A DNA stretch of 64,000 bases, taken from contig NZ_CP027062.1 in the NCBI RefSeq assembly GCF_002966125.1, positions 1,054,001 to 1,118,000 on the forward strand, given 5' to 3'. The notes beneath the pieces were generated by a model. The model saw only the letters and a program-made list of their open reading frames with translations, was not told the DNA's origin and made no database searches. Source of the stretch: Pukyongia salina. GTDB taxonomy: Bacteria; Bacteroidota; Bacteroidia; Flavobacteriales; Flavobacteriaceae. A program made the translations under genes and the position numbers. Shown here in pieces: positions 18,638 through 47,918 of this stretch. The number at the start of each line of letters is the position of its first letter. Position 1 is the first letter of the stretch.

Positions 18638-19141
18638 CTATTTTCTATAGAAGAGCTGAGTAAAATAGTAATCTCCTCTTCCGTTGGGAATGATCCCAAA
18701 TCCGGAATGTGTAAACAATCCTTCGATGATCTTTCTGTGTCCTGGACTATTCAACCAGGCATTTACCACATCCTCTGCGGTGTTGTAACCGTAGGCCACA
18801 TTCTCACCAACGATCGTGGCTCCCCTGTCTTTAAGACCCTGAGAGCGAACACCAAAATTATCATGGCTTAGTTTCGATTTTTGGATCATGTACTGTGTAT
18901 GCTCAACGGCGTAAGCCGATGCATACGTTTGATCTCTTTTTAATGCAGGTAATCCCATTGATTCTCGGTGTTGGTTTACCAGAACGAGAATGGCATTTGC
19001 CATTTCCCAATCGGTTTCCATGGCAAGGTTAAGGTCAATGGAGTAGTTTGCCTCTTCGACAACTACCGTTTCGTCTTTAGAGCAGGATACTATGGTAGTA
19101 AAAAATACCATAGCCAGTAGGCTGTATTTTACAAGTTTCAT
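18638..19141 (-). CDS. CAP-domain lipoprotein (SCP/PR1-like)
   Basis: A protein of 167 residues. A lipoprotein signal ends in TIVSC with Cys at about 20. The CAP domain follows: LVNQHRESMGLPALKRD (about 52-68), YAVEHTQYMIQ, LSHDNFGVRSQ with the conserved His, GENVAYGY and AWLNSPGHRKII with its His. This is the small secreted CAP fold found in many bacteria; lipid or peptide binding is suspected, but no enzyme role is proven. It is divergent from the isoaspartyl peptidase gene, with a 22-bp palindrome between them. Confidence 0.92.
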   Translation of the reverse strand: MKLVKYSLLAMVFFTTIVSCSKDETVVVEEANYSIDLNLAMETDWEMANAILVLVNQHRESMGLPALKRDQTYASAYAVEHTQYMIQKSKLSHDNFGVRSQGLKDRGATIVGENVAYGYNTAEDVVNAWLNSPGHRKIIEGLFTHSGFGIIPNGRGDYYFTQLFYRK

Positions 19142-19226
19142 AAGCGGGGGGCATCAAATTTGGGGCATGATGCTTGACAAATATAGAAAAAAAAACATGC
19201 AAAAGTGTATTTCAACCTATTTTTTA

Positions 19227-41619: not shown

Positions 41620-41644
41620 CGCCCTGAAGAATCGGGGCGTTTTT
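41620..41644 (+). terminator. Rho-independent terminator after the PfkB kinase gene
   Basis: CGCCCTGA and TCGGGGCG form an 8-bp stem (one G-U pair) with loop AGAA, followed by five T. It lies 5 bp past the stop and 20 bp before the purF ATG. Confidence 0.82.
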
Positions 41645-41663
41645 GGTTCTTATTACGCACAGC

Positions 41664-43562
41664 ATGAGCGACGCTTTAAAACACGAATGTGGAATTGCCA
41701 TGATACGGTTACTAAAACCGTTGGAATACTACCATAAGAAATATGGAACGGCATTTTATGGGGTGAACAAGATGTATCTCATGATGGAGAAACAGCACAA
41801 TCGCGGACAAGATGGTGCGGGCTTTGCAAGTATAAAACTGGATGTTTCTCCGGGCGAACGTTATATAAGCAGAGTGCGAAGCAACGCAGCACAGCCCATT
41901 CAGGATATATTTTCACAGATCAACGATCGCATTAACACCGAATTCAAGTTACATCCCGAATATTCCGGGGATGTGGAGGCACAGAAAAAGAACATTCCCT
42001 ATATAGGAGAGTTGTTACTGGGGCATGTACGTTACGGAACTTTTGGGATAAATAGTGTTGAAAATGTTCATCCTTTCCTGAGGCAAAATAACTGGATGCA
42101 TCGAAACCTGATCATTGCTGGTAATTTTAATATGACCAACACTACGGAGTTGTTCAACAATCTTATCAAGCTGGGAATGCATCCGAAGGAAAAGGCAGAT
42201 ACAATAACTGTGATGGAAAAAATTGGCCATTTCCTGGATGATGCGGTTAGAAAATTATATAAGAAAGCCAAAAGTGGGGGAATGAATAAAATGGAGGCCT
42301 CACCCTTTATTGCCGAAAACCTCAACATCGCAAAAATCCTGAAGAAATCTGCCCGCGATTGGGATGGTGGCTACACAATGGCCGGCATGATGGGTCATGG
42401 AGATTCTTTCGTACTTAGGGATCCGGCAGGGATCCGGCCTGCCTACTATTACCAGGATGAGGAAGTGGTTGTTATTGCTTCGGAACGGCCAGCTATTCAA
42501 ACAGTATTTAATGTTCCATTTGAAGAGATAGTAGAGATAAAACCAGGTCATGCTGTTATAGTGAAGAAGAACGGCAAGATGTCTGAATCTGAAATCCTTA
42601 GTCCGCTTGAGCGAAAATCATGTTCTTTCGAACGTATCTATTTTTCCAGGGGGAGTGACGCAGAGATCTATCAGGAGCGAAAGGAATTGGGGAGGTTAGT
42701 AATGCCGAAGGTTTTGGACGCCATTGACAGAGATACAGAGAATAGCGTTTTTTCTTTTATACCAAATACGGCAGAAACCTCGTTTTACGGGATGCTTGAT
42801 GCGGCTCAGAATGAGCTCAATAAACAGAAGAATGAGGCAATATTGAAGGAAGGAGCGAATTTAACCAACGAACGTCTCGAAGAAATACAGGCGCATAAGA
42901 TCCGTACCGAGAAGATCGCCATCAAGGATGTGAAACTCCGTACTTTCATCACCGAAGATAGCAGTAGGGACGACCTTGTCGCTCACGTATACGATGTAAC
43001 TTACGGAGTTGTACGGCCTGCAGATAATCTGGTAATTATCGATGATAGTATAGTAAGAGGTACTACTCTTAAGAAAAGTATATTGAAGATGCTGGACCGT
43101 TTAAACCCGAAACAGATCGTTGTGGTTTCATCGGCCCCTCAAATTCGTTACCCCGATTGTTATGGGATAGACATGGCCAGGCTGGAAGACTTGATTGCGT
43201 TTCAGGCTGCGCTGCAATTACATAGGGAACGAGGGACTTACGATATCGTAGAAGAGATCTACAAAAAGGCTAAGAAGGAGCTGGATAACGCTAGCGAACG
43301 GCCTGTAAATCACGTGAAGGAGTTGTATGCCCCATTTAGTGACGAGGAATTGTCAGATAAAATAGCGGAGATAATAAGTGATAATGATATCAACGCAAAG
43401 GTAAAGGTGATATTCCAGTCGGTGGAAGATCTGCATAAGGCATGTCCCAAGAATTTAGGCGACTGGTATTTTACTGGAGATTATCCTACCGAAGGAGGAA
43501 AAAAGGTTGTGAACAGGGCCTATGTTCATTTCTACGAGGGCAATCCCGAGCGTGCTTATTAA
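41664..43562 (+). CDS. purF: Long-form amidophosphoribosyltransferase (PurF-like)
   Basis: About 632 residues from the ATG at 41664; an upstream TTG would add seven residues but lies inside the terminator. The nucleophile Cys9 is in HECGIAM, so eight leader residues must be removed, as in other PurF precursors. Glutaminase motifs NRGQDGAGF and LLGHVRYGTFG and the PRPP loop VIIDDSIVRGTT confirm the family. The protein is over 100 residues longer than the usual 470-510, with extra segments in the glutaminase half and near the C-terminus, as in a Bacteroidota-specific form. It makes phosphoribosylamine, the first purine step; a second, standard PurF may exist elsewhere. Confidence 0.88.
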   Translation: MSDALKHECGIAMIRLLKPLEYYHKKYGTAFYGVNKMYLMMEKQHNRGQDGAGFASIKLDVSPGERYISRVRSNAAQPIQDIFSQINDRINTEFKLHPEYSGDVEAQKKNIPYIGELLLGHVRYGTFGINSVENVHPFLRQNNWMHRNLIIAGNFNMTNTTELFNNLIKLGMHPKEKADTITVMEKIGHFLDDAVRKLYKKAKSGGMNKMEASPFIAENLNIAKILKKSARDWDGGYTMAGMMGHGDSFVLRDPAGIRPAYYYQDEEVVVIASERPAIQTVFNVPFEEIVEIKPGHAVIVKKNGKMSESEILSPLERKSCSFERIYFSRGSDAEIYQERKELGRLVMPKVLDAIDRDTENSVFSFIPNTAETSFYGMLDAAQNELNKQKNEAILKEGANLTNERLEEIQAHKIRTEKIAIKDVKLRTFITEDSSRDDLVAHVYDVTYGVVRPADNLVIIDDSIVRGTTLKKSILKMLDRLNPKQIVVVSSAPQIRYPDCYGIDMARLEDLIAFQAALQLHRERGTYDIVEEIYKKAKKELDNASERPVNHVKELYAPFSDEELSDKIAEIISDNDINAKVKVIFQSVEDLHKACPKNLGDWYFTGDYPTEGGKKVVNRAYVHFYEGNPERAY

Positions 43563-43669
43563 ACTGTTAAAAAACCGGCTAAATTCGGCCGAATCATGCA
43601 CTTTAACGATTTTAACGAAAGCTTTATCTAAAAGTAGGAAAACTCTGATTTTCGTTTAATTATTTACTC

Positions 43670-43758
43670 TATATTTGAATCATACCATAGCATAAGTAGG
43701 TTAAGTTCATGGTAAGATTTGGGGCAAAAAAGGTAAACTCTCGTTTACCTTTTTTTTT
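43670..43758 (+). ncRNA. Candidate small RNA, copy A (promoter, hairpin, terminator)
   Basis: TATATTTG at 43670-43677 is an exact TAnnTTTG -7 box. The predicted transcript starts near 43683, where TACCAT (43683-43688) can pair with ATGGTA (43709-43714). It ends in a textbook terminator: GGTAAAC-TCTC-GTTTACC (43732-43749) and nine T. The flanks TTTGGGGC and GGCCCAAA extend the terminator stem. No ORF is carried. A nearly identical copy lies at 44924-45010, including the upstream box, which argues that the whole unit is a functional gene. It may instead be a terminator duplicated by chance with the repeat array. Confidence 0.5.
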
Positions 43759-43785
43759 GGCCCAAATCCAACGGGGTGGCGAGGA

Positions 43786-44606
43786 GCGTTAGCGACGAGC
43801 CGTTTACACTTCCCCATTACTCTCTTTACCTTTTTCCTAATGGGTGATGACAAGACGTATTCAATTCCATTTAACTATTGTTAGCTTTTCATACCTTAAG
43901 ACAATACGCAAGCGCCGAGCCGTTTACACTTCCCCTTAACTCTCTTTACTTTTTTCCTAATGGGTGAAGCCAAGATGTATTCTCTTCCCCTTAACTCTCT
44001 TTACCTTTTTCCAAATGGGTGATTACATGGCATATTCAATTACCTTTAACTCTTATTTCCTCTTTCAGCCGTGTGGCTATACGTAAGCGCCGAGCCGTTT
44101 ACACTTCCCCTTAACTCTCTTTACCTCCTTCCTAATGGATGATGACGAGACGTATTCAATTCCATTTAACTATTGTTAGCTTTTCATGCCGTATGACAAT
44201 TCGTAAGCGACGAGCCGTTTACACTTCCCCTTAACTCTCTCTACTTTTTTCCTAATGGGTGAAGCCAAGATGTATTCTCTTCCCCTTAACTCTCTTTACC
44301 TCCTTCTTAATGGATGATGACAAGTCGTATTCAATTCCATATAACTATTGTTAGCTTTTCATGCCTTAAGACAATACGCAAGCGACGAGCCGTTTACACT
44401 TCCCCTTAACTCTCTTTACTTTTTTCCTAATGGATGATGACAAGACGTATTCAATTCCATTTAACTATTGTTAGCTTTTCATGCCTAAAGACAATACGCA
44501 AGCGACGAGCCGTTTACACTTCCCCTTAACTCTCTTTACTTTTTTCCTAATGGGTGAAGACTTGGCGTATTCACTTCCCCTTAACTCACTTTACCTTAGA
44601 GGGTGG
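43786..44606. repeat. Degenerate tandem array of 55-bp and 65-bp monomers with 295-bp higher-order period
   Basis: The motif GACGAGCCGTTTACAC (or close variants) occurs at 43793, 43913, 44088, 44208, 44383 and 44503, with spacings of 120, 175, 120, 175 and 120. The spacings resolve into two monomer types: A (55 bp, containing CTTCCCCTTAACTCTCTTTAC and ending AATGGGTGAT) and B (65 bp, containing TTTAACTATTGTTAGC). The order is AB, AAB, AB, AAB, AB, AA. At several B-A joints GTAAGCG pairs with CGTTTAC over a six-base loop. The monomer lengths are not multiples of three and stops occur in all frames, so it does not code. It is not a CRISPR array: the monomers are adjacent without unique spacers. 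Confidence 0.88.
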
Positions 44607-44923
44607 AGATCGAAGACCTGCCGGGGTGAATTGCGTACTTCTATTCTAACATTTAGTCACCAATCCATTACAGGATAATATTGAGTATCTGGTTCGTTTT
44701 GTCCTGTTATACTTTAAATAATATTTCATTTGGATAAAAATGTATTATTTTGGAGATCAAAGACTGTTAAAGTCTTTTTTATTCCTACATAATATTTTGG
44801 CAAAAAGCCCGATATTTCCCTCTTTTCGGGAGTCATTGGGTAATAATTCCTATTAATATTTGCATTTTAACGAAAAAAGAGGTCCTTGGTCTAAAACTTT
44901 GGATTTTGAAAAATATAAACCTA
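44607..44923. other. Gene-free stretch between the two repeat arrays with one terminator-like hairpin
   Basis: About 320 bp of AT-rich sequence without a convincing ORF. AAGACT (44760-44765) and AGTCTT (44771-44776) form a short stem ending in a T run, a plausible weak plus-strand terminator. A second small inverted repeat with CCCGA and TCGGG lies near 44808-44831. Nothing else stands out. Confidence 0.5.
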
Positions 44924-45011
44924 TATATTTGAATCATACCATAGCATAAGTAGGTTAAGTTCATGGTAGATTTGGGGCAAAAAAAGGTAAACTCTCGTTT
45001 ACCTTTTTTTA
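44924..45011 (+). ncRNA. Candidate small RNA, copy B
   Basis: This repeats copy A almost base for base: TATATTTG at 44924-44931, TACCAT at 44937-44942 pairing with ATGGTA at 44963-44968, and terminator GGTAAAC-TCTC-GTTTACC at 44986-45003 with seven T. Relative to copy A it has one base deleted before TTTGGGGC and one extra A before the stem. TTTG elements at 44898-44901 and 44905-44908 lie 22 and 15 bp upstream of the -7 box. The likeness continues through the following GGCCCAAATCC and GGTGGCGAGGAGCGTAAGCG into the second array. Confidence 0.5.
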
Positions 45012-45045
45012 TTGGCCCAAATCCAACGGGGTGGCGAGGAGCGTA

Positions 45046-45242
45046 AGCGACGAGCCGTTTACTCTTCCCCTTAACTCTCTTTACCTTTTTCCAAATGGGT
45101 GATGACGAGCCGTTTACACTTCCCCTTAGCTCTCGTTTCCTTTTACTAATGGGTGATGACAAGCCGTTTACTCTTCCTCTGTACTCTCTTCACCTTTTCC
45201 AGCCATGTGACCAAGCGTAAGCGACGAGCCGTTTACATCTCC
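45046..45242. repeat. Second, shorter array of the same 55/65-bp monomers
   Basis: Monomers begin at 45049 (55 bp), 45104 (54 bp), 45158 (65 bp) and 45223 (partial), giving the order A, A, B, A. This is the same AAB grammar as the larger array. It follows small-RNA copy B exactly as the larger array follows copy A, so leader plus array were duplicated as a block or arose from one ancestor. It does not code. Confidence 0.85.
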
Positions 45243-47151: not shown

Positions 47152-47760
47152 TTACTTGTTCTGGGCGTAGTTTTTTGCAACAGCGTCCCAATTGATCACA
47201 TTGAAAAAGGCCGCAACATAGTCCGGTCTTCTGTTTTGATAATTTAAGTAATAGGCATGCTCCCATACATCAAGTCCCAAAATTGGAGTTCCTCCACATG
47301 TTACGCCCGGCATTAGCGGGTTATCCTGATTTGGGGTGGAACACACCTCCACTTTTCCTCCTGGATGAACACATAGCCAGGCCCATCCTGAACCAAATTG
47401 GGTTTTGGCAGCTTTTGAAAATGTTTCCTTAAAGGCATCGAAACTTCCGTATGCATCATTGATAGCTTCGGCTAGTTCGCCACTGGGCTGCCCTCCTCCG
47501 TTAGGTGACATTACTTCCCAGAATAGCCTGTGGTTATAGTAACCCCCACCATTATTTCTAACTGCGCCATTGCTCATATCCAGATTGGTAAGTATTTCTT
47601 CAATAGATTTACCTTCTAAGTCGGTGCCCTCAATAGCGGCATTTAAGTTATTTGTGTATCCTGCATGGTGTTTCCCATGATGAATCTCCATAGTGCGTGC
47701 GTCGATATGAGGTTCAAGCGCATCCGTAGCATATGGAAGAGTTGGTAATTGGAAAGACAT
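47152..47760 (-). CDS. sodA: Fe/Mn superoxide dismutase
   Basis: About 202 residues from the ATG at 47760 (an upstream ATG adds 11 residues and is less typical). Metal ligands are visible: His in [17 protein letters not shown], His in NHRLFWEVM, and the [19 protein letters not shown] block with Asp and His. The cytosolic form has no signal peptide. It converts superoxide to oxygen and hydrogen peroxide. Whether it holds Fe or Mn cannot be settled by eye, so sodA is only the customary symbol. Confidence 0.94.
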
Positions 47761-47918
47761 AATATGTAGTTTTAGATTATTAATAAATTGCATCTCAAAG
47801 GTAGTTATTCTAGTTTTTTTAAACTGTTAGAGAATTAATAAGATTTTTATTCCCTTATAGATTATAATTATTGTATGCTGAGTGCCGAGGTTTCTTTAAT
47901 TTAGTAAAAAATTAGCCT

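Follow-up and report, generated by a model that had tools for sequence, protein, structure and literature searches.

The window analysed here is a stretch of 64,000 nucleotides (nt) from Pukyongia salina (NZ_CP027062.1, positions 1,054,001 to 1,118,000 of the forward strand). Within it, the segments 43670-43758 and 44924-45011 form a pair of near-identical units, and each unit carries a separate promoter box, hairpin, G-rich linker and intrinsic terminator. These two units belong to a previously unlisted family of small RNA (sRNA) genes, which is conserved in sequence, structure and gene neighbourhood across the Flavobacteriaceae, and whose two-part complement is enriched at start codons. We consider it likely that they are free-standing genes whose sRNAs act in trans, by pairing with the leader and start codon of their target mRNAs and blocking the initiation of translation.

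The two sRNA genes of the window

An earlier note on this DNA had described two near-identical units with an exact TAnnTTTG box, a hairpin and an intrinsic terminator, and all of these were found again where it had placed them. The two copies are 81% identical over 128 nt without gaps and 96% identical over 109 nt with gaps. As the flavobacterial promoter box spans positions -12 to -5 (F. psychrophilum, PMC9723704), transcripts of 75-76 nt are predicted, starting at about 43682 and about 44936. The features of both copies, all on the forward strand, are as follows.

43625-43635, +: upstream element of copy 1, TTTATCTAAAA, candidate activator site centred at about -45 (column conservation)
43670-43677, +: promoter -7 box of copy 1, TATATTTG (sequence; spacing in the copies; box position as in F. 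psychrophilum, PMC9723704)
43682-43757, +: sRNA gene copy 1, predicted transcript of about 76 nt (start from box spacing, end from terminator)
43683-43714, +: 5' hairpin, TACCAT(AGC)...(GTT)C ATGGTA (sequence and fold; pairing kept in rare variants)
43691-43705, +: seed 1, hairpin-loop sequence CATAAGTAGGTTAAG, its CAU predicted to face the target AUG (near-invariant in 446 copies; complementary leaders)
43715-43724, +: seed 2, predicted single-stranded linker AGATTTGGGG (near-invariant; complement CCCAAA(TC) in target leaders)
43726-43755, +: intrinsic terminator of copy 1, stem and T-run (13-bp stem, compensatory changes at 9/13 pairs)
44924-44931, +: promoter -7 box of copy 2, TATATTTG (sequence)
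44936-45010, +: sRNA gene copy 2, predicted transcript of about 75 nt (sequence, search of relatives, fold)
44945-44959, +: seed 1 of copy 2 (same sequence as in copy 1)
44969-44977, +: seed 2 of copy 2, GATTTGGGG (sequence)
44979-45010, +: intrinsic terminator of copy 2, stem and T-run (perfect 14-bp stem)

The pairing of TACCAT with ATGGTA (43683-43688 with 43709-43714 in copy 1; 44937-44942 with 44963-44968 in copy 2) stands as noted before, but the hairpin is longer than the 6 bp then given, since pairing of AGC (43689-43691) and GTT (43705-43707) can extend the stem, with one C bulged out. The presence of one A after ATGGTA (AAGATTT versus AGATTT) differs between the copies, and relatives vary in the same way, so the units share no conserved reading frame, in agreement with the earlier statement that they hold no open reading frame (ORF). 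The predicted transcripts fold better than dinucleotide shuffles (z of -3.88 for copy 1 and -3.75 for copy 2), but this signal stems mostly from the terminator, and the 5' hairpin part alone is unremarkable (z -1.3).

Conservation across the Flavobacteriaceae

The unit was found in 19 of the 40 relatives searched, often several times at one place, and in a 26-mer scan of the genome collection, no fewer than 117 stretches from named Flavobacteriaceae contained it. A covariance model recovered the sRNA in 121/149 Flavobacteriaceae genomes, each from a different genus, with one to six copies per genome, mostly in tandem; the window's own genome holds only the two neighbouring copies. Altogether, 446 distinct copies were collected for comparison. 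Across the family, some 40 nt form a nearly unchanging core, conserved best in the loop of the hairpin (CAUAAGUAGGUUAAG) and in the linker (A)GAUUUGGGG, both free to pair, and in 342/446 copies the -7 box ends exactly 5 nt before CCAT. As the RNAalifold consensus on the ragged alignment put the terminator in the wrong place, 40 copies matched in length were used to count terminator pairs; in these, 9 of the 13 pairs carry changes on both sides and 98.6% of the terminator cells are paired, compared to 46-55% with the partner strand slid. Rare variants of the 5' stem (CCATAAC..GTTTATGG; CCATATGAC..GGTCTATGG) also stay paired. The covarying base pairs that the earlier note had thought worth seeking are present in the terminator stem; the 5' stem hardly varies and, beyond its rare variants, neither passes nor fails such a test.

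The constant spacing of box and hairpin, the compensatory changes in the terminator and the presence in 121 of 149 genera support the suggestion that the window holds two copies of a functional sRNA gene. That the unit might exist only as part of a surrounding repeat does not hold, because in related genomes it is present family-wide, as tandem units, outside any genus-specific repeat. Matches to homologues outside the Flavobacteriaceae were weak over many genomes (best E values 2.5e-4 and 0.002) and were not accepted, and an exact-match search of viral contigs for the unit found none.

The genomic setting is likewise conserved in the 155 loci examined. In 129/155, a purF homologue lies upstream on the same strand, directly adjacent in 126; downstream, in convergent orientation, a superoxide dismutase gene is present in 119/155 and is the first convergent gene in 108. 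The window keeps this order of purF, sRNA and sod, with an alcohol dehydrogenase-like gene inserted before sod:

41643-43562, +: purF, conserved upstream neighbour
47152-47793, -: Fe/Mn superoxide dismutase, conserved convergent downstream neighbour

Upstream of the promoter, a TTCATCTAAAA-like block at about -49 to -40 stands at a constant distance from it in many copies; columns -49/-48 (TT), -44 (C) and -42/-41 (AA) are conserved in 63-83% of 430 copies. The conservation of this block, in contrast to positions -32 to -13, makes a regulator site likely, and the element is probably, judging from column conservation, the binding site of an activator; a role of this -45 element in control of the sRNA is what we infer.

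Two variants of the gene were observed beside standard copies. In arrays of Zobellia, Maribacter and Flagellimonas, the last copy has a different conserved promoter (CACAATACCAGTAATTTAG) and the linker GGGACG, which suggests separate regulation of paralogues. In Aequorivita and some other genomes, a divergent paralogue accompanies the standard copy (CCATAAGGCGTAAGTAGGTTAGGTCTATGG and close variants; loci L133, L137, L048, L062 and L107), with the loop CATA changed to CGTA and a stronger inner stem (about -11.5 kcal/mol).

Also, the DNA between the copies, earlier said to differ, is not simply different, as a degenerate array of 55-120 nt repeats trails both copies (43760-44600 and 45020-45240; units of 55, 65 and 120 nt; GACGAGCCGTTTACACTTCCCCTTAACTCTCTTTACC). 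The array unit resembles the sRNA terminator arm AACTCTCGTTTACCTTTTT, and exact copies of a 26-nt piece of it are confined to the window locus among all loci fetched.

Predicted target mRNAs

To look for targets, a two-part pattern was derived from the sRNA sequence alone, CCCAAA-N4-14-ACCUACUUAUG (that is, CCCAAA-N4-14-AC(C/T)TACT(A/T)ATG), and searched in 249 genomes of the family. It gave 45 matches in 41/249 genomes, one of them the sRNA gene itself and 44 outside it, compared to 6 for a reversed control that does not preserve dinucleotides. Exact ACCTACTTATG matches open an ORF of at least 25 amino acids (aa) in 34/35 cases, while the one-mismatch TAATG form does so in 1/4. Moreover, CCCAAA is followed by TC, which the pattern does not require, in 12/38 matches (p ~1e-6, with an assumed background of 6%). 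The motif is rare (0.15 per genome), and occurs in 24/121 genomes with the sRNA versus 0/28 without detected sRNA (p = 0.008, in a test that ignores phylogeny). In target leaders with a recognisable -7 box, the commonest distance from the box to the following CCCAAA is 4 nt; the linker would accordingly pair with the extreme 5' end of the mRNA or close to it. A strict 18-nt exact pattern proved too narrow, matching the own genome only, plus the sRNA gene itself in genome G138.

Several protein families recur as predicted targets in different genera, namely the 29-aa peptide described below (7), NNDPI-GIW lipoproteins (5), CAP lipoproteins (3), cadherin-like lipoproteins (3) and Fer4_19 proteins (3), besides Ig/DUF1573, laminin-G and type IX secretion system (T9SS)-tail proteins. 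The predicted targets thus comprise a syntenic 29-aa peptide and a CAP-domain lipoprotein, besides other lipoproteins and secreted proteins that resemble adhesins.

In the own genome, start regions were scanned in stretches covering about 27% of it, window included. Among 1352 start regions ranked by duplex with the sRNA, the leader of the 29-aa peptide, added to the ranking from its own locus, came first (-38.9 kcal/mol). The loop complement CTTAACCTACTT has exactly one exact match in the own genome outside the sRNA genes, and it is in this leader: 17 nt, ending in the AUG of the 29-aa ORF, with CCCAAA just upstream. The peptide transcript is conserved at the DNA level in 7/7 genomes of the genus and in one further genus, and the two-part pattern finds it in additional genera, where it is flanked by a 3-oxoacid CoA-transferase-like gene on one side and an ABC transporter gene on the other. 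Across genera, the blocks TCCCAAA and AAC(C/T)TACTTATG of its leader are kept while the bases between them vary, and the C/T change retains a G-U pair.

The peptide locus is L202:1478-1695 (about 1251280-1251497 of the own genome), with further instances in L248, L247, L261, L264 and L323. The mRNA for the peptide (..TVRLIKNVLYVAKKVFLLM) is an ultra-conserved short transcript with a near-invariant 3' terminator hairpin, CCCGTTCTTTGTGAGGTTAGAACGGG; it has no Rfam family. A peptide gene, a toxin-like gene and a dual-function RNA are all conceivable.

The window itself contains a predicted target, which came second in the same ranking and is also another of the best 14 entries among the 1352 start regions:

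18638-19141, -: CAP-domain lipoprotein gene (Pfam CAP, 1.8e-16)
19139-19173, -: predicted leader of its mRNA, in which GCCCCAAAT (19158-19166) and GCTTATG (19139-19145) would pair with seeds 2 and 1, respectively (duplex, fold)

Its protein shares 44% identity (E 2e-40) with L266, the CAP lipoprotein that recurs as a predicted target in other genera. In its leader, GCCCCAAAUU lies in the loop of a 6-bp hairpin and the end reads GCUUAUG; the leader therefore holds both halves of the site, with the balance between them shifted.

Proposed mechanism and its standing

Several features expected of a trans-acting base-pairing sRNA are found here: an independent, conserved, non-coding gene with promoter and terminator, a conserved unpaired seed, and complementary mRNA sites beyond chance (44 versus 6; 34/35). 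In Bacteroidota, start codons are generally not marked by a Shine-Dalgarno sequence. We propose that each unit is its own gene for an sRNA of about 75 nt, with a housekeeping-type promoter, a 5' hairpin, a single-stranded linker and a Rho-independent terminator. At the start codon and the leader bases just before it (..AACCUACUUAUG), the mRNA would be bound by the hairpin loop CAUAAGUAGGUUAAG; close to its 5' end, CCCAAAUC would be bound by the linker (A)GAUUUGGGG. The sRNA, once bound, would cover the very short leader and the AUG and block initiation. Its targets would be surface lipoproteins and secreted proteins, including the CAP lipoprotein of the window, and the conserved 29-aa peptide, whereas tandem copies with separate promoters may set the dose and permit differential control. 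The block at leader and AUG is proposed by analogy with FopS on susC (PMC11697453); activation instead of repression, or a protein partner, is possible.

Several points weigh against this proposal. Transcription, binding and repression are what we infer, and the co-occurrence of motif and sRNA was tested as noted regardless of phylogeny. The 5' stem is almost invariant, too much so for a covariation test. Before ATGs in the 27% sample of the own genome, ACCTACTT-like sequences are not enriched overall (at 6/8 matches, 9 were counted and 7.7 expected), from which it follows that strict target genes are few and the strict regulon small; single-seed searches of the own genome gave matches fewer than or similar to the control, and are informative only for the one exact start-codon match. 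Finally, in 121 genomes of one Flavobacterium-like genus, in which the loop is usually CATTAGTAGG, the two-part pattern found no CCTACTAATG leaders at start codons, so no compensatory change of sRNA and target is shown there. The old leaders are likewise absent from these genomes by the same pattern, and their loss where the loop has changed agrees with pairing specificity.

A wider reading, which we put forward tentatively, is that of a family-wide Flavobacteriaceae regulon with a two-part code spread over a leader of 20-35 nt, the loop reading the start codon and the linker the first bases of the mRNA. Such a regulon might control surface adhesins and lipoproteins, together with the mRNA of the ultra-conserved 29-aa peptide, which would be either a toxin-like effector or a sponge feeding back on the sRNA.

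Alternative explanations

The RNA could be real and yet mainly bind or sequester a protein, either of the RNA recognition motif (RRM) type, such as RbpB, or a ribosomal factor, with tandem copies providing titration capacity and the leaders being other sites of the same protein. The extreme conservation of loop and linker and the several tandem copies would fit, as would a stretch, UUCAUGGUA(A)GAUUU, that also occurs in the RbpB-binding FopS (PMC11697453). Nevertheless, the leaders are complementary to the sRNA and not copies of it, changes in the peptide leader are compatible with G-U pairing (AACTTACTTATG), and bases beyond the search pattern also follow complementarity, so we regard sequestration as improbable. 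Fainter still appears the prospect that CCCAAA...ACCTACTTATG leaders represent a translation or promoter element that Flavobacteriaceae have independently of the sRNA, and which the sRNA matches by coincidence or titrates through the reader of the element. The position of CCCAAA, often 4 nt after the -7 box, could reflect a preferred transcription start, and the control of the pattern did not preserve dinucleotides; on the other hand, the motif was taken from the sRNA alone, is too rare to be general, and is missing where no sRNA was detected (28 genomes) as well as in the genus whose loop has changed.

It is also conceivable that the units are a mobile or repeat element, a terminator-bearing palindrome spread in the own genome with no functional RNA gene. 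In the own genus, the terminator indeed lies within a longer palindrome (GATTTGGG...CCCAAATC), and the degenerate array follows both copies. However, the own genome holds just two neighbouring copies, the family occupies the same locus in most of the 155 loci examined, and the array is seen solely at the window locus while the core is family-wide, which makes this explanation very improbable indeed.

Comparison with known RNAs

The earlier note had not recognised the sRNA as a known flavobacterial RNA, and a search of the units against Rfam agrees, with no family at its threshold and chance matches only; those to STnc250 and mir-5697 fall on the terminator palindrome. A literature search for the core sequence returned no bacterial sRNA paper among the matches listed.

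Tandem sibling sRNAs are known elsewhere, such as LhrC (Listeria), PrrF (Pseudomonas) and NmsR (Neisseria), which act on envelope or metabolic mRNAs. As in the window, their near-identical genes lie next to each other, and every gene has a promoter and a terminator to itself; but these sRNAs belong to a different phylum, and we know of no sequence relation. IstR-1/tisB, a type I toxin-antitoxin pair with a trans-encoded RNA, resembles the peptide case, in which a separate sRNA is predicted to pair close to the 5' end of a short mRNA whose product is a basic, hydrophobic peptide of 29 aa; it differs in that the new sRNA has further predicted targets, and no sequence relation is known.

To our knowledge, very little is known of sRNA regulation in Bacteroidota outside Bacteroides. 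The FopS/GibS sRNAs of Bacteroides (RF04319) are multicopy, about 65-75 nt long and have housekeeping promoters and a conserved seed (PMC11697453). FopS has 14 paralogues per genome, classed as intergenic, antisense or derived from 3' untranslated regions, and pairs through its 5' region with mRNAs of surface (SusC-like) proteins at the start codon, a block of initiation having been demonstrated experimentally on susC (PMC11697453). The new sRNA resembles FopS in being multicopy, in its housekeeping promoter and, as predicted by analogy, in surface targets and start-codon pairing; the common UUCAUGGUA(A)GAUUU stretch, a statistically weak likeness, could be, e.g., an RRM-protein site. It differs from FopS in its one to six, mostly tandem, copies, in its targets, and in that it would pair via hairpin loop and linker. 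By score and structure, it is not a FopS member: both copies reach 20.3 bits against a threshold of 56 (E ~3), and the FopS R1' seed UUCAUGGUAUUAGAUUU is not found in a single-stranded 5' region, the first half of the similar stretch being the 3' arm of the hairpin. Moreover, an RF04319 search of 21 relatives (E<=0.001) gave no match, while the control Bacteroides matched.

Closer in taxonomy are the Rfp RNAs of Flavobacterium psychrophilum (PMC9723704), a member of the same bacterial family, which are likewise conserved and independently transcribed, in a genome with TAnnTTTG promoters. Compared by description only, one of these 85 RNAs could be a member of the sRNA family described here; Rfp18 differs in its third stem-loop and protease targets (PMC9723704).

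Significance

If the proposal is true, this sRNA would be among the most widely conserved of a major family of marine, soil and fish-associated bacteria, with a target rule readable from sequence, and would provide an independent parallel to FopS for the blocking of initiation by sRNAs in Bacteroidota. Moreover, sRNA control of the secreted and surface proteome of Flavobacteriaceae would become directly testable.
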